From an uncultured Lachnospiraceae bacterium (GTDB lineage Bacteria > Bacillota > Clostridia > Lachnospirales > Lachnospiraceae): a DNA stretch of 64,000 nucleotides. Below are positions 9,812 to 20,546 of the stretch, piece by piece. Each line of letters starts with the position of its first letter. Positions within the stretch are counted from its first letter, which is position 1. A model generated the notes under the pieces. It was not told where the DNA came from. It did not search any database and saw only the letters and a program-made list of their open reading frames with translations. The stretch is from the NCBI GenBank assembly GCA_903789615.1, contig CAIFEV010000003.1, positions 186,001 to 250,000 of the forward strand, written 5' to 3'. A program made the translations under genes and the position numbers.

Positions 9812-10720
9812 ATGGTATCAGTCGTCATTCCTGCATATAATGAGGAGGAAAACATCCGGAGAGCTGCGGATACGATCAGCAGAATCCTGGAGCGGGAGAA
9901 GATTCCGTATGAGCTGCTTTTTGTCAACGACGGATCCGCGGACAGGACCTGGGAGCTGATCCGGGAGGAAGCGGCAGAAAATCCGAATATTCACGGCCTT
10001 TGCTTTTCGAGGAATTTCGGAAAAGAATCGGCGATTTTTGCGGGACTTCGGGAATCGCGCGGCGACTGCACGGCGGTGATCGACTGCGACCTGCAGCACC
10101 CGCCGGAGAAGCTGGTTGAGATGTACCGGCTCTGGGAAAAGGGGTATGAGATCATCGAGGGCGTGAAGAGAAGCCGCGGCGAGGAGTCGGGCGGCCACAA
10201 GGCGGCTGCGAAGACTTTTTACCGCATCATAAGCCGCGCGACAGGCATCGACATGTCGAATGCCTCGGACTTCAAGCTGCTTGACCGCAAGGCCGTGACG
10301 GTACTCGTGAATATGCCGGAAAAAAACGCTTTTTTCAGGGCACTCTCTTCCTGGATCGGTTTTAAAACGGCGAAAGTGGAGTACGACGTACAGGAGCGGC
10401 AGGCGGGAACATCCAAGTGGTCGACCAGAAAGCTGATAAGCTACGCGCTGACGAACATTACGTCTTTTACCACATTTCCCATGCAGGTGGTGACGGTGCT
10501 GGGCGTTATCATGCTTATTGTCGCGATCGTTCTGGGCGTCACGGCTCTTGTCCAGAAGATCATGGGCGTTGCGCTGGGCGGATTCACGACGGTGATCATT
10601 CTCCTTTGCTTCACGGGGAGCATCATCATGATCAGCCTCGGTATCATCGGGTATTATCTCGCGAAGATTTATGAGGAGGTCAAGGGGAGACCTCGCTATA
10701 TACTGGCCGAAAAGGTGTGA
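9812..10720 (+). CDS. Family 2 glycosyltransferase, polyprenyl-phosphate type (DPM1/GtrB-like), two C-terminal TM helices
   Basis: MVSVVIPAYNEEENIRRAADT, DCDLQHPPE, C-terminal hydrophobic helices. Confidence 0.9.
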   Translation: MVSVVIPAYNEEENIRRAADTISRILEREKIPYELLFVNDGSADRTWELIREEAAENPNIHGLCFSRNFGKESAIFAGLRESRGDCTAVIDCDLQHPPEKLVEMYRLWEKGYEIIEGVKRSRGEESGGHKAAAKTFYRIISRATGIDMSNASDFKLLDRKAVTVLVNMPEKNAFFRALSSWIGFKTAKVEYDVQERQAGTSKWSTRKLISYALTNITSFTTFPMQVVTVLGVIMLIVAIVLGVTALVQKIMGVALGGFTTVIILLCFTGSIIMISLGIIGYYLAKIYEEVKGRPRYILAEKV

Positions 10721-10749
10721 GGCGCACGGATGCGCGAAAGGGGTGGCAA

Positions 10750-12393
10750 ATGGTTAAAGACGGAAAAATCTGGCTGGGATCGGCCGCGGACGGAACGCAG
10801 GCTCTGCTGATCCCCGGCATGGCCAACCGGCACGGGCTGGTAGCCGGCGCGACAGGGACCGGAAAAACCGTAACACTGAAGGTGCTCGCGGAGTCATTCT
10901 CAAAGCTGGGCGTCCCGGTGTTCATGGCAGACGTGAAGGGCGATGTGACCGGGATCATGGAGCCGGGTCAGGACAGTCCGAAGGTGGCCGAAAGAAGAAA
11001 ACAGTTCGGACTGGATGAAGCCGGTTTCACGTTTGAGGGTTGTCCGGTGACGGTATGGGATCTCTTCGGGAAGACCGGAATCCCGCTGCGCACGACTATT
11101 TCGGACATGGGGCCGATGCTGCTTTCCAGGATTCTCGGACTGAATGACCTGCAGAGCGATATTCTGTCGATCGTGTTTCGAATCGCCGATACGAACCGCC
11201 TGCTTCTCATCGACACCAAAGATCTGAAATCGATGCTTGCGTATGTCGGCGATCACGCGAAGGATTTTGAGGCACAGTACGGGAGAATCTCCCAGGCTTC
11301 AATCGGAGCCATCACGCGGGCTGTTGTTGCCCTTGAGATTGCCGGCGGGGAGACATTCTTTGGCGAGCCGGCACTGTCTGTAACAGACTGGCTCACCAGA
11401 ACTCCGGACGGGCGCGGCAGCATCAGTCTGCTTGACAGCCGCAGCCTTATCGGAAATCCGGTTCTGTACTCCACGTTTCTTCTCTGGCTTGTGAGCGAGC
11501 TGTTTGAAAACCTGCCGGAGGTGGGCGACTGTGAACTGCCGAAGATGGTCTTTTTCTTTGATGAAGCGCACCTGCTGTTTGTGGACACGCCGAAGGCTCT
11601 GCAGGACAAGATTGAGCAGGTCGTGAAGCTGATCCGCTCCAAAGGCGTCGGAATCTTTTTCTGCACACAGAATCCGCGCGATATTCCGGACGGCGTTCTC
11701 TCACAGCTTCAGACGCGGATTGAGCACGGTCTCAGAGCGTACACGCCGGCCGACCAGAAGGGAGTTCGGGCTGCGGCAGATTCGTTCCGCGTGAATCCGG
11801 CATTTGACACGTATGAGACGATCCTGGGGCTGGGCACCGGCGAAGCGGTGGTGTCTCTTCCGGATGAAAACGGTGTGCCGGGCATGGCGCAGAAGGTGAC
11901 GATCCTTCCTCCGCAGTGCCTGATGAGCGCCGCGCCGGAAAGCGACGTTGACCGGTGTGTCAAGGGCAGCCTTCTCTACAGCAAATATGCGCAGGCTGTC
12001 GATCCGGAATCTGCGTACGAAAGGCTGGCGCAGCAGTCGGAGCAGGAGAAGCGGCAGGAAGAGGAAGAGACGGCCGCAGCCAGGCAGGAGAAGTTACAGA
12101 AAGCTGCAGAAGCGGCGCAGGCAAAGGCGCTGGAAAAGCAGCAGGCTGCTGAAGAAAAGGCAAGGGAAAAACAGGCGGCTGCAGAAGAAAAGGCAAGGCA
12201 GAAGGAACAGGAAGCCGCCGAGAGAAAGAGAAAACAGGCGATCAGCCAGGTGGGAAGCACACTGGCCGGCACAGTCGGCCGGGAAGTCGGAAAGAATCTC
12301 GGGAAGAATTTCGGGTCGTTCGGGAAAACTCTGGGCGGCAATGTGGGAGCCAGCATCGGACGCGGTCTGCTGAATACACTTTTGAAACGATAA
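10750..12393 (+). CDS. HerA-like helicase/ATPase (DUF853-type) with Lys/Glu/Ala-rich coiled C-terminus
   Basis: HGLVAGATGTGKTVTLKVLAESF, VFFFDEAHLLF, IFFCTQNPRDIPDGVLSQL. Confidence 0.85.
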   Translation: MVKDGKIWLGSAADGTQALLIPGMANRHGLVAGATGTGKTVTLKVLAESFSKLGVPVFMADVKGDVTGIMEPGQDSPKVAERRKQFGLDEAGFTFEGCPVTVWDLFGKTGIPLRTTISDMGPMLLSRILGLNDLQSDILSIVFRIADTNRLLLIDTKDLKSMLAYVGDHAKDFEAQYGRISQASIGAITRAVVALEIAGGETFFGEPALSVTDWLTRTPDGRGSISLLDSRSLIGNPVLYSTFLLWLVSELFENLPEVGDCELPKMVFFFDEAHLLFVDTPKALQDKIEQVVKLIRSKGVGIFFCTQNPRDIPDGVLSQLQTRIEHGLRAYTPADQKGVRAAADSFRVNPAFDTYETILGLGTGEAVVSLPDENGVPGMAQKVTILPPQCLMSAAPESDVDRCVKGSLLYSKYAQAVDPESAYERLAQQSEQEKRQEEEETAAARQEKLQKAAEAAQAKALEKQQAAEEKAREKQAAAEEKARQKEQEAAERKRKQAISQVGSTLAGTVGREVGKNLGKNFGSFGKTLGGNVGASIGRGLLNTLLKR

Positions 12394-12403
12394 GAAAAGA
12401 AAC

Positions 12404-15055
12404 ATGATCAAACAGGCAGTTATAGGAATGGTGGCTCACGTAGACGCCGGCAAGACGACGCTTTCCGAGGCGCTCCTGTACACGACAGGTATGATCCGGA
12501 AAGCCGGCCGCGTGGATCACGGTGATGCGCATCTGGATCAGGATGTGACGGAGCGCCGGCGCGGCATTACGATCTTTGCAAAGAGTGCCCGGATCCGCAC
12601 ACAGGGGCTGGATGCGGTACTTCTGGACACACCGGGACACGTGGATTTTTCAGGCGAGACCGAGCGCGCGCTTGCCGCCATGGACCAGGCGGTCCTTGTG
12701 GTCAGCGCGGCAGACGGCATTCAGGCCCACACACGGACGATCTGGCGCCTGCTTGCGGGATACCACATTCCTACTTATATATTTATCAACAAAACCGATC
12801 TGCCGAACGCGGATTTTGAGCGCGTGTACGGTCAGCTTCGCCGGGAGTTTTCAAAAGACTGCATTGACGTGCGGGGCGTACGGGCGGCCGCGGACGGGAC
12901 GCTTGAGGGATTATCTTCCCGGGCGGAGGAAGAACTGTCACTCACCGATGAAGAGCTGCTTGATTCGTATCTTGAATCCGGGAAGATTGCGCGGGACGCG
13001 GCGGCAGGAGCAGCCGCGCGCCGGCAGTTCTTCCCGGTTTTTTCCGGTTCGGCGCTTCATCTGGAAGGCGTGGATGACCTGGTGCGGGGACTGGAAATCT
13101 TTACGGTTCCGAAAAAATACCCGGATGTGTTCGGGGCCTGCGCAGTCAAGATCGGGCGTGATGCGGCCGGGCACAGGCTGACGTTTCTCAAAGTGACCGG
13201 CGGCGTGCTGAAAGCCCGTCAGACGGTCGGATACGAGACGGAAAACGGAGAGGAAATCCGGGAGAAGATCGATCAGATCCGCAGCTATTCGGGCGAGAAT
13301 TTCGAGCAGCTCCCGGAGGCGGCTGCGGGAAGCTTCGTGGCCGTGACAGGGCTCACAGCGCTGTCAGCCGGCCAGGGACTCGGCGCCAATCCCGGGGTTC
13401 GCCCGCCGCTTCTTACACCGGTGATGAGCTTTGGCGTGATCCCGCCGGAGGGCGAGGATCCTTTTATCCTGTATCAGAAGCTGAAAAGCATCGAAGCAGA
13501 AGATCCGCTTCTCGGATTCACATGGAATGAGCGCACCAGAGAAATCCAGGTCCGTCTGATGGGTCACGTCCAGGCGGAAGTCCTGAAGACGAAGGTGATG
13601 GAGCGCTTCGGTGAGGACATTTCCTTCGGGCCGGGGAAGGTTGTATACCGGGAGACGGTGGAGGAAGCGGTCGAAGGAATCGGCCATTTTGAACCACTCC
13701 GCCATTACGCTGAGGTTCACGTTCTTCTCTCACCGGCGCCGCGGGGCAGCGGCGTGACGGTTGACAGTGTCTGCCCGGTTGATGTCCTGCCCATGCGCTG
13801 GCAGAAGATGATTCTGGGAAGCCTGAGACAGAAGTGCGCACCCGGACGCGGGTTTCATGGCGCCCTGACCGGTGCGCTTCTCACGGACGTACGGATCACG
13901 CTGCTCACTGGGCGGGCGAGTGTGAAACACACCGGCGGAGGGGATTTCCGCGAGGCGGCATACAGGGCTGTAAGGCAGGGACTTATGAGCACGCGCTGTA
14001 CCCTTCTGGAACCGTATGAGGCGTTTACCGCACAATTTCCGCAGCAGGCGATCGGCCGCGTGATGACGGATCTGGAAGCGCGTGGAATTCACACGGATGC
14101 GCCGCAGATACAGGAAGACGGGACAGGTGCACATGCGGTTCTGACGGGCCGCGCTCCGGCAGCAGTCCTGGACGGATATGCGCAGCAGCTGAGAGCGGTG
14201 ACGAAGGGAAATGGAGAGATCCGGCTGGAATATGACGGCTACGACGTCTGCCATAATCCGGATGAGGTCATCGCTGCGGCCGGGTATGACCCGGAGGCAG
14301 ATCTCCTACAGCCGACCGGCTCGGTGTTCTGTGCAAACGGCGCCGGATATCCGGTCCCGTGGAATGAAGTTCCATATTATATGCACGTAGAGAGGGCGTT
14401 TCATCCGGAAGGACCGGAAGAGACGAAAACGGACGTAAACACGGCTTGCAGCGGCTCCGGGCAAAAGCCTGTCTCCGACAAAGAGAGGCGCACAAGAGAC
14501 CGGCTCGCCGAGGAGAAAGAGGAAGCCGACCTGAACGAGATCATGGCCGAGATGGCTAGGCGCGAGCACGGGAGAGGCGGCGTGAAAGGCTGGGGCCATA
14601 CAACCGTCCGCACGTACGGCAGAACCGGGCACTCCGGGGCAGCGGCAGAGCGCCCGAAGATGTACCTGATCGACGGGTATAATCTTCTCTATAAAACGGA
14701 GGAACTCGCAGCCCTTCGCGAGGTGAACCTGAACGCAGCTGCCGAGAAACTCTGCAGCATGCTGTCTGCCTGGCAGGGATGGATCGGATGCCGGGTGGTC
14801 GTTGTCTTCGACGCATACCGGAAAAAGGAAAGTCAGGGCAGCGTCGCCCGCGATGGGGAGCTTGAAGTCATCTACACAAGGACCGATGAGCCGGCGGATG
14901 CATTTATCGAAAAATATGTCCATGATGCGGCGGGCCGGTACAGAATTACCGTGGTGACGGATGACAATCTTGTGCGGCTCACCTGCCTGAAATTCGGCGC
15001 GATACCGCAGACGGACGACAGTTTTCTTGAAGAAATGAACCAGAGAGGGCTGTGA
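12404..15055 (+). CDS. TetM/EF-G-like translational GTPase fused to a C-terminal NYN (YacP/Rae1-type) ribonuclease domain
   Basis: GTPase motifs AHVDAGKTT, RRRGITIF, DTPGHVDF, NKTD; EF-G-like domains to about residue 700; then MYLIDGYNLLY...VVVVFDAYR...VVTDDNLVRLTCLKFGA of the NYN/YacP family, all in one 883-codon ORF. Confidence 0.88.
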   Translation: MIKQAVIGMVAHVDAGKTTLSEALLYTTGMIRKAGRVDHGDAHLDQDVTERRRGITIFAKSARIRTQGLDAVLLDTPGHVDFSGETERALAAMDQAVLVVSAADGIQAHTRTIWRLLAGYHIPTYIFINKTDLPNADFERVYGQLRREFSKDCIDVRGVRAAADGTLEGLSSRAEEELSLTDEELLDSYLESGKIARDAAAGAAARRQFFPVFSGSALHLEGVDDLVRGLEIFTVPKKYPDVFGACAVKIGRDAAGHRLTFLKVTGGVLKARQTVGYETENGEEIREKIDQIRSYSGENFEQLPEAAAGSFVAVTGLTALSAGQGLGANPGVRPPLLTPVMSFGVIPPEGEDPFILYQKLKSIEAEDPLLGFTWNERTREIQVRLMGHVQAEVLKTKVMERFGEDISFGPGKVVYRETVEEAVEGIGHFEPLRHYAEVHVLLSPAPRGSGVTVDSVCPVDVLPMRWQKMILGSLRQKCAPGRGFHGALTGALLTDVRITLLTGRASVKHTGGGDFREAAYRAVRQGLMSTRCTLLEPYEAFTAQFPQQAIGRVMTDLEARGIHTDAPQIQEDGTGAHAVLTGRAPAAVLDGYAQQLRAVTKGNGEIRLEYDGYDVCHNPDEVIAAAGYDPEADLLQPTGSVFCANGAGYPVPWNEVPYYMHVERAFHPEGPEETKTDVNTACSGSGQKPVSDKERRTRDRLAEEKEEADLNEIMAEMARREHGRGGVKGWGHTTVRTYGRTGHSGAAAERPKMYLIDGYNLLYKTEELAALREVNLNAAAEKLCSMLSAWQGWIGCRVVVVFDAYRKKESQGSVARDGELEVIYTRTDEPADAFIEKYVHDAAGRYRITVVTDDNLVRLTCLKFGAIPQTDDSFLEEMNQRGL

Positions 15056-15161
15056 AGCTGTAGCAGCGATCTTTTCCTTACACTTCCGTGTATTGATAAA
15101 AGAACGTCAAAGTTCCCGGAAAAGGTGTATAACAATGTTATAGAAAGTGAGGGAGTATGAG

Positions 15162-15599
15162 ATGAAGCTTGAAACACTTCAGAAAGACATGATTGCGGCC
15201 ATGAAGGCACACGACAAGGACCGCAAAATGGCGCTTTCCTCTCTTGTGTCGGCTGTGAAGAAGGCAGGAATTGACGCGGGAGAGAGAGAAAGCATTCCGG
15301 AAGAGCTCGCCGACAAGGCGATTCTGAAGGAACTGAACGCAGTGAAGGAAGAGATCGACACCTGCCCGGCCACGAGACCGGATCTGAAGGAGCAGTATAT
15401 TTTCCGCTATAAGGTGATCGAAGAGTACGCGCCGAAGATGATGAGCGAAGATGAGATCCGCGAAGTACTTATGGCGCAGTTTTCCGATCTGATCGCGACA
15501 AAGAACAAAGGTCAGATCATGAAGACCGTAATGCCGGCTCTTAAAGGAAAAGCGGAAGGAAAGACAATAAGCAAAGTTGTGGCCGGACTGCTGAAATAA
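15162..15599 (+). CDS. GatB/YqeY domain protein
   Basis: MKLETLQKDMIAAMKAHDKDRKMALSSLVSAVKKAGID...KNKGQIMKTVMPALKGKAEGKTISKVV. Confidence 0.9.
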   Translation: MKLETLQKDMIAAMKAHDKDRKMALSSLVSAVKKAGIDAGERESIPEELADKAILKELNAVKEEIDTCPATRPDLKEQYIFRYKVIEEYAPKMMSEDEIREVLMAQFSDLIATKNKGQIMKTVMPALKGKAEGKTISKVVAGLLK

Positions 15600-15655: not shown

Positions 15656-17575
15656 ATGCCGGTAACAGTATTTTTAATTTTGTTTCCGCTCATCTGGGCG
15701 TTCGTGATCTTCGCGATCCGGGACAACAAAGTGCGCGGAATTGCTGCCTACATCGGTTCGGGGACCATCATCGCCGCCGTCGGAGTTCTTTTTGTCCAGT
15801 GGCTCATCAATGGACGGGTTCCGATCAAAATGTTCTATGACACGGAGACGGCGGACCATTTCATCCTGACGGGTGAGATCGTCCTGATGCTGGTCGTGAC
15901 GTACCTGTGCTTCAAGTACCACAAGTACTGGATCAGCATTCTGTCGATTGTGCCGACGCTTATGCTGGCGTATTTCGAACTTGCCGGCCCGGAGCTTCAC
16001 AAGATCCCGCATGTATACATTGACCATCTGTCGATGCTCATGTGCCTGATCGTCGGTATTATCGGCGGCATGATCATTGTGTACGCGGTCGGCTATATGG
16101 ACGGCTATGCGCATCATCATCCGGAGTTTGAGGACCGCCGCAATTATTTTTTGGGTCTTCTGTTTTTCTTCCTCAGCGCGATGTTCGGATTTGTCATGTC
16201 GGAGTCGCTGCTGTGGATTGATCTGTTCTGGGAGACGACCAGCGTGTGCTCGTTCCTGTTGATCGGTTACACGAGAACGGACGAGGCTGTTCACAACTCG
16301 TTCCGCGCGCTGTGGATGAACCTGGCCGGCGGTGTGGCTCTGGCAGTCGGCATTATCTATTTCGGCTATCAGTCTCACACAGTTGCTTTTCACGATCTTA
16401 TCGATCTCTCGACACAGATGCACATGGCGTACTGCGTGCTTCCTGTCGCGCTGATCGCCTTTGCCGCGCTGACCAAGGCGGCACAGTATCCGTTCTCCAC
16501 ATGGCTCATCGGAGCCATGGTCGCCCCGACTCCGTCGAGCGCCCTGCTCCACTCAGCCACGATGGTCAAGGCCGGGATCTATGTGCTTCTGCGCCTGGCT
16601 CCGGCAATGGCCGGGACTCTGACGGGTACCATGATCACATTTATCGGAGGCTTCACCTTCTTCGTCGCTTCGATCATCGCGATCGGCCAGAGCGACGGCA
16701 AGAGAGTGCTCGCCTTCTCCACGATCAGCAACCTGGGACTGATGGTGGCCTGTGCCGGTGTCGGTGCGCCTGAAACCGTCTGGGCCGGCGTCCTGCTGAT
16801 GATCTTCCATGCGGTTTCCAAGTCGCTGCTCTTCCAGGATGTCGGTGCCACGGAAAATGCGATCGGCAGCCGCGACATCGAGGATATGCACGGCCTTCTG
16901 TACCGCCTGCCCAGACTGGCAACATTCATGTTCATCGGTATCGCGGGTATGTTCCTGGCTCCGTTCGGCATGCTGATTTCCAAGTGGTCGGCTCTGCGGG
17001 CGGCTGTCGATGAGTCTAACATCCTTCTGGTTCTCTTCATTGTATTCGGTTCTGCCACGACGTCCTTCTACTGGACCAAGTGGATGGGCAAGCTGATCTC
17101 CAGAAGCCATGAAACCGGCGACAGACTGAAAGATATCACGAAGAGAAATGAAGTAGTGTCTCTCACGGTTCATGCGGCTCTGATGATCCTGCTGTGCATC
17201 CTGGTTCCGTTTATCTCCAAGGTATACGTGGATCCGCTGCTGATCGAAATGTTCGGCAAATACGAGGATGTGCTTCCGATGGGTGTTCTGTACACCATGA
17301 TCGTCGTCATCGCATTTGTCTTCCTTGTCCCGATATTCAGCTATTTCATCGGGCGCAAGATGCGCGCGAACGTGAAGCTCACCTATATGAGCGGTATCAA
17401 TACCGGTGACAACACGATGTTTGTGGATTCGCTTGGCGAGCCGAAGAGGCTGTGGCTGTCCAACTATTATTTCCGTTCCTTCATTCACCCGCATCAGCTG
17501 CGTATCTTCAGTCAGATCCTGACGACGGCGGTTCTTCTGGTGATGATGAGCATGATCATAGGAGGCGCACTCTGA
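15656..17575 (+). CDS. Ech-type hydrogenase antiporter-like membrane subunit (EchA; NuoL/HyfB family)
   Basis: Multi-TM Proton_antipo_M region: YTRTDEAVHNSFRALWMNLAGG, LTKAAQYPFSTWLIGAMVAPTPSSALLHSATMVKAGIYVLLR. Confidence 0.9.
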   Translation: MPVTVFLILFPLIWAFVIFAIRDNKVRGIAAYIGSGTIIAAVGVLFVQWLINGRVPIKMFYDTETADHFILTGEIVLMLVVTYLCFKYHKYWISILSIVPTLMLAYFELAGPELHKIPHVYIDHLSMLMCLIVGIIGGMIIVYAVGYMDGYAHHHPEFEDRRNYFLGLLFFFLSAMFGFVMSESLLWIDLFWETTSVCSFLLIGYTRTDEAVHNSFRALWMNLAGGVALAVGIIYFGYQSHTVAFHDLIDLSTQMHMAYCVLPVALIAFAALTKAAQYPFSTWLIGAMVAPTPSSALLHSATMVKAGIYVLLRLAPAMAGTLTGTMITFIGGFTFFVASIIAIGQSDGKRVLAFSTISNLGLMVACAGVGAPETVWAGVLLMIFHAVSKSLLFQDVGATENAIGSRDIEDMHGLLYRLPRLATFMFIGIAGMFLAPFGMLISKWSALRAAVDESNILLVLFIVFGSATTSFYWTKWMGKLISRSHETGDRLKDITKRNEVVSLTVHAALMILLCILVPFISKVYVDPLLIEMFGKYEDVLPMGVLYTMIVVIAFVFLVPIFSYFIGRKMRANVKLTYMSGINTGDNTMFVDSLGEPKRLWLSNYYFRSFIHPHQLRIFSQILTTAVLLVMMSMIIGGAL

Positions 17576-18450
17576 TGAACCATACAATTCTTTATGTGAT
17601 CGGAGCGGTTCTCTATATAGTGGGAGCTCCGTTTCTGGGCTGCCTGATGGACGGCGTGGAAAGAAAGCTTTCGGCGAGGATGCAGGGGAGAATCGGACCG
17701 CCGGTTCTGCAGCCGTGGTATGACTTTATCAAGCTTCTGAACAAGCAGGTCGTGACCGTTGACCGGGCACAGTTCTTCATCCTGATGTCCTATCTGGTTC
17801 TGATGGTCATGTCCGGTGCCATGTTCTTCTCCGGCAACGACCTCCTGATGACGTTCTTTGTGCTGTCGACAACCGGTACCTTCCTGTACTTCGCGGCTAT
17901 CGTTCCTTCGAGCCCTTATTCCTCGATGGCGGCCAGCCGGGAGCTGATCCAGGAAGTCTGCTATGAACCGGCTGTGCTTCTGCTCTCCGTGGGCTTTTAT
18001 CTTGCCACGGGTACGTTCAACGCAAGAGCGGTGTTCACTCAGAACACGAGCCTGGTTATGTTCCTTCCGGGGTTCCTCGCGGCCTACCTGTTTGCGATGA
18101 TCATCAAGCTGAGAATTTCGCCGTTTGATGTTTCCACTTCGCATCATGCGCATCAGGAACTCGTTCAGGGTGTCACAACCGAGATGGGTGCCAGAAACCT
18201 GGCGCTCTTCAAGCTGGCCGAGTGGTATGAGATGGTGTTCCTGTACGGCGTTGTGGCGATATTCATTCTGAACAGCTCGCCGGTGAGCATCCTGGCGGCT
18301 GTACTGGTTGACCTGGCCGTTTTCTTCTGCTTCGTGCTGATTGACAACACAAATGCCCGTGTGAAGTGGGAGAACATGCTCGGACTGAGCTGGGCTGTCA
18401 CGGGACTGTGCTCCGGTGTGAACCTGCTGATTCTGATGATGATCCGCTGA
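17575..18450 (+). CDS. Ech-type hydrogenase membrane subunit (EchB; NuoH family)
   Basis: GVERKLSARMQGRIGPPVLQPWYDFIKLLNK; NuoH-family core. Confidence 0.9.
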   Translation: MNHTILYVIGAVLYIVGAPFLGCLMDGVERKLSARMQGRIGPPVLQPWYDFIKLLNKQVVTVDRAQFFILMSYLVLMVMSGAMFFSGNDLLMTFFVLSTTGTFLYFAAIVPSSPYSSMAASRELIQEVCYEPAVLLLSVGFYLATGTFNARAVFTQNTSLVMFLPGFLAAYLFAMIIKLRISPFDVSTSHHAHQELVQGVTTEMGARNLALFKLAEWYEMVFLYGVVAIFILNSSPVSILAAVLVDLAVFFCFVLIDNTNARVKWENMLGLSWAVTGLCSGVNLLILMMIR

Positions 18451-18473
18451 CAGAAGAAATTGAGGGATAACAG

Positions 18474-19004
18474 ATGGGAAAAGTTAAAAAATCGCCGTGG
18501 CTGCTGCATTATGACGGCTCCAGCTGCAACGGCTGTGATATTGAAGTCCTTGCGACGCTGACACCCGTGTATGACGCGGAGCGGTTCGGTGTCGTCAACA
18601 CCGGAGATCCGCTTCAGGCGGATATTCTGATGATCACCGGCGGCATCAATCAGCAGAATGCACCGGTTGTGAAGCAGCTGTATGATCAGATGCCCAGACC
18701 CAAGGTTGTCGTGGCTGTTGGAACCTGTGCCTGCTCGGGCGGCGTGTTCCGCGAATGCTACAACATGCTGGGCGGTGCGGATTCCACAATCCCAATTGAC
18801 ATCTATGTTCCGGGATGTGCGGCCCGTCCGGAGTCCATCATGGACGGCATCATGAAAGCGGTGGAGCTCTTCCAGAAGCGTTCGGACGAGCATGACCGGT
18901 ATGAGAAAGAGCACAAAGGAGAGGCCGGTCCGGTAGATCCGAACATAAATACGGCCCGCGACAAGGTGAGAATGAAAGAAATGAAGGGAGCGGCAGATGT
19001 CTGA
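18474..19004 (+). CDS. Ech-type hydrogenase small subunit (EchC; NuoB family)
   Basis: DGSSCNGCDIEVLA, VAVGTCACSGGVF, PIDIYVPGCAARPE: cysteine ligands of the proximal [4Fe-4S] cluster. Confidence 0.92.
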   Translation: MGKVKKSPWLLHYDGSSCNGCDIEVLATLTPVYDAERFGVVNTGDPLQADILMITGGINQQNAPVVKQLYDQMPRPKVVVAVGTCACSGGVFRECYNMLGGADSTIPIDIYVPGCAARPESIMDGIMKAVELFQKRSDEHDRYEKEHKGEAGPVDPNINTARDKVRMKEMKGAADV

Positions 19005-19464
19005 AGAAGCAGCCGATAAGAAAACTGCCGGACTTTCCGGCAAAAGCGTGATCGTGCCGATTCAGGCCGAGGAGCTTGTACAAAAGGCAGTGGAGATGAA
19101 GAAAAAGGGCCTCCGCCTTTCCCAGGCCTGCTGCTCATGGGTGAACAATCAGTACGAGATAAGTTATTCCTTTGCGGATGATGAGACGCTGGACTATACG
19201 ACGCTCCGCATCCTCGCGGGACGCACGGATGAAATCACCAGTATATCGGAAATTTATCCGTATGCCGCCTTCTATGAGAATGAGATGGAAGAACTGTTTG
19301 GCCTGAAGATCCGGTATATCAATCTGGACTATCACAACCGGCTCTACAGGATCAAGACAAAGGCACCGTTTCTTCCGGAGGATCAGCGGGAGGTCACATC
19401 CGGACCGGCAGCAGAAAAATCGCCGGATGTTGCAGAAGCAGGGAAGAAGGAGGATGCCAACTGA
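18997..19464 (+). CDS. Ech-type hydrogenase subunit (EchD; NuoC family)
   Basis: ISEIYPYAAFYENEMEELFGLKIRYI; NuoC 30 kDa motif. Confidence 0.85.
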   Translation: MSEEAADKKTAGLSGKSVIVPIQAEELVQKAVEMKKKGLRLSQACCSWVNNQYEISYSFADDETLDYTTLRILAGRTDEITSISEIYPYAAFYENEMEELFGLKIRYINLDYHNRLYRIKTKAPFLPEDQREVTSGPAAEKSPDVAEAGKKEDAN

Positions 19465-20546
19465 TGGGGAAGAAAAGTGTAATTCCGTTCGGACCGCAGC
19501 ATCCGGTCCTTCCGGAACCGATTCATCTGGATCTTGTCGTGGAAGACGAGAGAATCGTTGAGGCGATTCCGAATATCGGCTTCATCCACAGAGGCCTTGA
19601 GGGACTTGCCCCGGACCGCGATTTCCAGAAATATCTGTATGTTGTCGAGAGAACCTGCGGAATCTGTTCTTTCGGGCATGGTCTCGGGTATGTGGAATCC
19701 ATCGAAGGAATCATGAATGTCGAGGTTCCGGAGAGAGCAAAATATCTGCGTGTTGTGTGGGCGGAGATGGCCCGAATGACCAGTCACCTGATGTGGCTCG
19801 GTTTCACGGCCGACGCTTTCGGATTCGAGTCTCTTTTCTATGAGGCGTGGAGGATCCGTGAGAAGGTCCTGGATCTGATGGAGATGACGACCGGCGGCCG
19901 GCTGATCTACTCGGTCCTGAAGGTCGGCGGTGTTCTTAAGGACATCACGCCGGATATGCAGAAGAAGATTCTGGATGACCTGAACGAGATCGAAAAAGAA
20001 ACACGCGAGATGACGAGGACGTTCCTGGACGATTATTCCGTCAAGACACGTCTTGTGGGTGTCGGTGTACTCACGAAGCAGCAGGCTCACGACGTCGGCG
20101 CCTGCGGTCCGATGGCCAGAGCGAGCGGCATCGTCTGTGACATGCGCATGCGCGGATATGAGGCATATGCGGATCTCGGGTTCGAACCGGTTGTTTCACA
20201 GGACGGTGACAGCTATGCCAGATGTGAAGTCCGTATCAATGAGATTTTTGCCTCAATTGAGCTGGTGCGCAGAGCATTTGAACGCATGCCGAAGGAAGGC
20301 GATCTTGCCGTCACCGTCAAGGGAAATCCAGACGGCGAGTATTTTGCAAGAATTGAACAGCCCAGAGGCGAGGCAATTTTCTATTCGGAAGGACACGGCA
20401 AGCCGGCGCTTGACCGTTTCCGTCTGCGCACGCCGACATTTGCCAATCTCCAGGCCCTTTGCGAGACGCTTAAAGGTGCCGAGTACGCGGATGTTCCGAT
20501 TCTGATTCTTACGATTGATCCGTGCATCTCCTGCACAGAGCGGTAA
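19464..20546 (+). CDS. Ech-type [NiFe] hydrogenase large subunit (EchE; NuoD family)
   Basis: GPQHPVLPEP, N-terminal ERTCGICSFGHG, C-terminal DPCISCTER; all four Ni-binding Cys present. Confidence 0.93.
   Translation: MGKKSVIPFGPQHPVLPEPIHLDLVVEDERIVEAIPNIGFIHRGLEGLAPDRDFQKYLYVVERTCGICSFGHGLGYVESIEGIMNVEVPERAKYLRVVWAEMARMTSHLMWLGFTADAFGFESLFYEAWRIREKVLDLMEMTTGGRLIYSVLKVGGVLKDITPDMQKKILDDLNEIEKETREMTRTFLDDYSVKTRLVGVGVLTKQQAHDVGACGPMARASGIVCDMRMRGYEAYADLGFEPVVSQDGDSYARCEVRINEIFASIELVRRAFERMPKEGDLAVTVKGNPDGEYFARIEQPRGEAIFYSEGHGKPALDRFRLRTPTFANLQALCETLKGAEYADVPILILTIDPCISCTER

Follow-up and report, generated by a model that had tools for sequence, protein, structure and literature searches.

A TetM-related GTPase carrying a relocated Rae1-like nuclease domain in Lachnospiraceae is probably not a tetracycline-resistance protein

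Fusions in which an EF-G/Tet-type GTPase is followed by a YacP-like NYN domain (NYN_YacP) have been known since 2015, when the architecture was reported in ten clostridial species (Clostridiales) and interpreted as the acquisition of a domain by Tet proteins, with a suggested role in resistance (Atkinson 2015; PMC4342817). The closest described relative of the second part is Rae1 (YacP) of Bacillus subtilis (PDB 5mq8, 5mq9), a free-standing protein some 170 residues long that is encoded between rlmB and sigH and for which endoribonuclease activity at the ribosomal A site has been reported (PMC6613710, PMC12320835); the first part resembles Tet(M) and Tet(O) (PDB 3j9y, 4v6v), and TetM binds translating ribosomes (3j9y). 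Here we analyze a protein with the same domain order, encoded in a 64,000-nucleotide stretch of DNA from an uncultured Lachnospiraceae bacterium (contig CAIFEV010000003.1; hereafter the window). Unlike what was described in 2015, it belongs to a set of fusions that is carried by 128 of 150 genomes of the family, that stands in place of the operon copy of yacP and whose GTPase lies outside the resistance clade.

The preliminary description of this locus, a single 883-residue open reading frame comprising a complete EF-G/TetM-type GTPase, a linker and an NYN domain, is borne out, well above chance level, by Pfam, AlphaFold and Foldseek, and the profile search that it proposed recovered both the EFG/TetM and the NYN_YacP domains (Table 1). 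Pfam E-values range from 5.8e-49 to 1.5e-4 over the GTPase part, with EFG_III, EFG_IV and EFG_C passing their gathering cut-offs and EF-G_D2 scoring slightly under its own, and reach 1.1e-29 for the tail, where NYN_YacP matches residues 755-880 with 104 bits against a cut-off of 24.6. Motifs AHVDAGKTT, DTPGH, NKxD, DGYN, FDA, AD and TDD are all found and, having G1, G3 and G4 motifs as well as domains II-V, the protein is a translational GTPase of the EF2/EF-G superfamily. Its AlphaFold model, based on an alignment of 60 relatives (mean pLDDT 83.7), consists of two confident blocks, the GTPase and the NYN domain, and pLDDT falls below 50 at residues 672-691 and 722-747, on either side of a linker helix (692-722). 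The full model matches EF-G and TetM (3j9y) in Foldseek; with Tet(M) and Tet(O) the GTPase has in common the five domains and a C-terminal extension, at about 28-31% identity, and this extension is also found in unfused relatives. The tail alone matches B. subtilis Rae1 both in Foldseek (5mq9; E=6e-9, TM 0.79) and in phmmer (5mq8; 1.3e-9), and its profile score, catalytic residues, fold and position in the tree all place it in the Rae1 family.

Table 1. Features of the fusion gene, with positions counted from the first nucleotide of the window
Feature	Positions	Strand	Evidence or remark
Fusion gene: translational GTPase, linker and NYN_YacP/Rae1-like domain	12404..15055	+	ATG start, 883 aa
G domain, residues 6-229	12419..13090	+	Pfam GTP_EFTU 5.8e-49; AHVDAGKTT, DTPGHVDF, NKTD intact
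EF-G domain II, residues 247-326	13142..13381	+	Pfam EF-G_D2 slightly under cut-off; strands in model
EF-G domain III, residues 338-409	13415..13630	+	Pfam EFG_III
EF-G domain IV, residues 411-529	13634..13990	+	Pfam EFG_IV 1.9e-9
Domain IV tip loop I, residues 427-438, family signature GHFEPLRHYAEV	13682..13717	+	Alignments; differs from TetM and EF-G
Domain IV tip loop III, residues 503-516, GRASVKHTGGGDFR	13910..13951	+	Alignments
EF-G domain V, residues 534-618	14003..14257	+	Pfam EFG_C 5.3e-15
Conserved GTPase C-terminal extension, residues 612-661, CHN..EVI...SVFC..G.G..V.W..V..YMH	14237..14386	+	
Variable charged linker, residues 662-751	14387..14656	+	dN/dS; pLDDT
Linker motif, degenerate copy	14519..14563	+	Elsewhere ELEEIFxRTYGPIKR or EIDxIIxxTFYAN
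NYN_YacP (Rae1-like) domain, residues 752-883	14657..15052	+	Pfam 1.1e-29; phmmer; Foldseek; dN/dS
D757 (B. subtilis Rae1 D7), candidate catalytic acid	14672..14674	+	111/111 fused, 34/34 standalone
D803 (B. subtilis D53), candidate catalytic acid	14810..14812	+	111/111 fused, 34/34 standalone
D832 (B. subtilis D81), candidate catalytic acid	14897..14899	+	111/111 fused, 34/34 standalone
D854 (B. subtilis D104), candidate catalytic acid	14963..14965	+	110/110 fused, 34/34 standalone

The NYN domain shares the fold of B. subtilis Rae1, aligns with it nearly without gaps over 123 residues and keeps D7, N10, D53, D81 and D104. A loss of the acidic residues, the outcome that the preliminary description had set against its own reading, was not observed, all four being present; N10 (N760 in the window) is likewise identical in 111/111 fused and 34/34 standalone sequences. 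The earlier statement that both halves retain their catalytic-looking residues thus holds for the acids, but the window copy departs from Rae1 at otherwise near-invariant sites (in B. subtilis numbering, R30 to A780, Q108 to R858, W15 to T765 and R118 to P868). It also ends near B. subtilis residue 133, without the C-terminal helix of Rae1 (the R166 region), a longer tail being retained by many of its fused relatives; R166, the site of a loss-of-function mutation in B. subtilis (R166P; PMC6613710), belongs to the tail that is absent here. Across the fused family a C-terminal block, A116/R118/E123/L124, which is near-invariant in standalone Rae1 including the family's own, is relaxed (p 1e-4 to 1e-7, ignoring relatedness); in particular, R118 is found in 34/34 standalone but 67/110 fused domains (p about 9e-7, again ignoring relatedness).

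With a branch of 3.5 against a median of 0.3, the NYN domain of the window is the most divergent in the NYN tree. Decay into a pseudogene, as this very long branch might suggest, is ruled out by a dN/dS of 0.035-0.066 within the genus, compared with 0.07-0.08 for the GTPase and 0.34 for the linker (the latter from one pair with measurable dS), ratios that are all approximate with synonymous distances near or above 1. Purifying selection on the NYN domain is at least as strong as that on the GTPase.

Standalone yacP usually occurs in the order cysS-mrnC-rlmB-yacP-sigH, directly 3' of rlmB, which it adjoins at all 24 loci sampled outside the family and at 7 of 8 inside it; the same position is seen in order- and class-level relatives (L151, L152). 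One family copy at the rlmB locus (genome G054; L308:4459-5238:+) carries a long C-terminal tail rich in lysine and serine. When the window genome was searched for NYN_YacP, as the preliminary description had advised, no standalone yacP was found and the fusion was the sole match. Searches with RlmB in 21 genomes carrying the fusion detected no NYN domain within 1.5 kb on either side of rlmB, and in 14 of them, the window genome (L296) included, rlmB is followed by sigH, within 130 bases in 12. In the NYN tree, the fused domains and the standalone YacP of the same family come together within clostridial YacP (support 99) and, because the tree nests it there, the occurrence of the window's NYN domain outside the rlmB-sigH interval reflects relocation rather than non-membership.

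Six of the genomes with standalone yacP still have an unfused Tet-like GTPase. Such unfused proteins (among them those of G022, G017, G043, G048 and G137, and one from Ligilactobacillus salivarius) belong to the same clade as the fusions and carry the same domain IV signatures, but have neither linker nor NYN domain; where they coexist with standalone yacP in Lachnospiraceae, they probably represent the state before fusion. On the simplest account, the rae1 native to the lineage moved out of its operon and became joined to a Tet-like GTPase. Gene trees alone are insufficient to order these events, and those of the GTPase to tell whether the unfused clade is ancestral; it is operon synteny that settles the polarity.

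The distribution of the two parts was surveyed at three levels. In the family sample (150 genomes, at least 90% complete), 136 genomes have a NYN_YacP match, which is fused in 128 and standalone in 8 (G005, G017, G022, G043, G048, G054, G082 and G137), with none having both; by our reading of the table and loci, 123 of the 128 fusions are a single open frame and the others (G078, G119, G033, G081 and G145) are interrupted by contig ends or frame breaks. Extra partial NYN matches occur in four family genomes. These genomes suggest that the fusion replaces ordinary Rae1. Neither an NYN domain nor a fusion-type GTPase was found in the remaining 14, a joint absence that was set aside as a sign of functional linkage, considering that loss of one fused gene removes both. 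In a phylum-wide sample, NYN was detected in 221 of 399 genomes, mostly standalone outside the family, and the fusion-type GTPase (E<=1e-90) in 35, including that of the window; 28 of these are ORFs of 857-937 residues and seven are unfused ORFs of 651-674 residues, four in genomes with a standalone NYN and three in genomes without any (G462, G484, G507). Since three of the seven lack any NYN partner, the GTPase must have some independent role. When 85,488 species genomes were scanned, at least 598 related loci came up, in Lachnospiraceae and Oscillospiraceae among other groups. Within the genus of the window the gene is present in 3 of 11 genomes and is therefore dispensable, although several of the other 8 are incomplete. 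In one draft genome of this genus (G548; 83% complete, with 5% contamination) two distinct fusions occur, one a close orthologue of that in the window (L190) and one more ordinary and perhaps due to contamination (L189).

Both automatic names and the literature, where such fusions are grouped with Tet and a resistance role is suggested (PMC4342817), imply a protein that protects ribosomes from tetracycline and has an RNase domain as an accessory, and the best NCBIfam model for the GTPase half is indeed tet_protect. The match, however, scores 381 bits, the cut-off being 775, while a real Tet(M) scores 877 and a Streptomyces OtrA homologue 696; moreover, in a maximum-likelihood tree from a quick search, Tet(M/O/W/S/36) and OtrA form one clade and the GTPases of the fusions another, each with an SH-aLRT of 99. 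The tips of domain IV also differ: loop III of Tet(M)/Tet(O) (YYSPVSTPADF; GLYYSPVSTPADFR in TetM) is replaced in the fusion family by a near-invariant AHxKHTEGGDF core (consensus GRAHxKHTEGGDFR), with ASVKHTGGGDF rather than a YYSPV-type sequence in the window, and loop I is a near-invariant GHFEPLRHYAEV instead of the IHIEVPPNPFWAS of TetM. Loop III alone is not decisive, because some substitutions in it leave Tet(M) active, as in the S508A/P509A/V510A triple mutant (PMC4750697). A distribution like that of a core gene and the existence of natural copies that retain the nuclease while domain IV is absent or degenerating, described below, also speak against a protection protein, and we regard this explanation as very unlikely.

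On cut-off, clade and loops, all of them sequence criteria, resistance is rejected as the main role: the fusion is probably not a tetracycline-resistance gene and, although it falls outside the tetracycline-protection family in these comparisons, it may well act on the ribosome like one. The earlier proposal that the fusion serves a nuclease rather than resistance is strengthened by the relocation, the separate clade, the sub-cut-off score and the constraint on the NYN domain, as well as from two natural variants that keep the NYN domain and the linker motif with GTPase domains III-V or IV-V degenerate or gone. Hundreds of chromosomal genes are probably misnamed when annotated automatically as 'TetM/TetW/TetO/TetS family tetracycline resistance', with consequences for counts of resistance genes in gut genomes. 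The L. salivarius GTPase mentioned above, encoded on a plasmid beside rpsN (S14) and annotated as tetracycline resistance (L157:3986-5920:+), sits among fused sequences in the GTPase tree and may have lost its NYN domain. That the fusion occurs in 128/150 genomes of the family rules out a mobile resistance gene; one copy, from A. rectalis, is on a replicon of 251 kb that was typed as non-mobilizable.

Although linkers differ in length and sequence, those of most members include a short conserved motif, which is degenerate in the window copy. The first of the two variants (G149; L117:1671-4457:+) is very divergent, with 25% GTPase identity; Pfam detects only its G domain and NYN domain, and the linker motif (EEIFLKTFGPIRNR) and NYN are kept while the body of the GTPase is eroded. 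The second (G115; L309 on contig 43, 1861-3930, minus strand) has 690 residues and lacks domains IV-V, with G domain, linker motif and NYN remaining; its G1 loop is altered to ASVDMGKTT. This second protein, together with the long, weakly constrained linker and the unfused GTPases of several families, would fit a fusion that is mainly a device for tethering or co-expression, in which the GTPase has a factor role of its own (for example, relieving specific pauses), the NYN domain is independent and location on the ribosome is a concentration effect. That standalone Rae1 has been replaced and not supplemented in 128 family genomes, and that most members have kept a short motif in the linker, which argues for more than a passive leash, make such an arrangement rather unlikely in our judgment.

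A role of the rRNA/tRNA-maturation type was first proposed for YacP by Anantharaman and Aravind (2006). As a factor for ribosome assembly or rRNA/tRNA maturation, the fusion would place its GTPase on assembling subunits, which are also possible targets of EF-G-like GTPases, and its NYN domain would trim rRNA or tRNA; the ancestral operon partners are RlmB (a 23S methylase) and the RNase III-like MrnC, and in B. subtilis loss of yacO/rlmB and loss of rae1 phenocopy each other (PMC6613710). Direct reports on Rae1, on the other hand, concern A-site mRNA cleavage (PMC12320835, PMC6613710), and the GTPase retains the EF-G/TetM set of domains by which the 70S decoding center is read, so that we find a maturation factor unlikely.

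Comparison of the sequences makes it very probable that, jointly, the tail is the lineage's own Rae1 relocated onto a non-resistance relative of TetM, that it is the only Rae1 of its genome, and that its acids and the G motifs are under purifying selection while the linker drifts. The fuller statement, that the fusion is a Rae1 tethered to a GTPase, an mRNA endonuclease directed to the ribosome and not a tetracycline-resistance protein, acting by the hand-over outlined here, is one that we favor by a modest degree. The GTPase in its GTP state would recognize paused ribosomes with an accessible A site, its specialized domain IV tip loops probing the decoding center, and would retract after GTP hydrolysis; the nuclease, on a flexible leash of roughly 90 residues, could then enter this A site, or one on a neighboring ribosome, and cut the mRNA, and the truncated message would pass to tmRNA rescue and decay (tmRNA is present in the genome). 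Since the A site would be needed by a TetM-type domain IV and by Rae1 alike, docking of both at once is unlikely and we assume a sequential hand-over; the non-catalytic surface of the nuclease could relax because docking would be supplied by the GTPase. A-site docking, GTP-dependent delivery, the order of events and mRNA cleavage by the fusion are inferred, and the loss of the R30, Q108 and R118 equivalents and of the Rae1 C-terminal helix in the window copy counts against them, as do the dispensability of the gene within the genus, the independent role of the GTPase and the absence of a conserved neighborhood.

More broadly, though we hold this tentatively and at somewhat under even probability, Lachnospiraceae and some related Clostridia may have turned Rae1 from a diffusible A-site mRNase into one controlled by a GTP switch, by relocating it from the rlmB-sigH operon to a dedicated, non-resistance TetM relative; this would define a class of ribosome quality-control factors in which a translational GTPase first inspects the A site and then brings in the nuclease attached to it. 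If the mechanism is true, a ribosome-scanning GTPase covalently linked to an A-site mRNase is widespread in a major gut family, and the choice of paused ribosomes by Rae1 becomes testable in a single protein.

As regards genomic context, a conserved neighborhood was sought at about 80 loci and none emerged beyond an ABC-transporter-like family found at 15, and a role in anti-phage defense was discarded, no PADLOC model having matched. Copies of the fusion are also present on two unverified 'Bacteriophage sp.' scaffolds from human feces (L164 and L165; MT835563, MT835514), possibly mis-binned bacterial DNA. In the window, the gene is flanked by a HerA_C-type ATPase (10717-12393) and a YqeY-like protein (15147-15599), which are not conserved beside the fusion elsewhere; further downstream (15656-20546) lie subunits, judged by eye, of a membrane-bound NADH-dehydrogenase/hydrogenase type.
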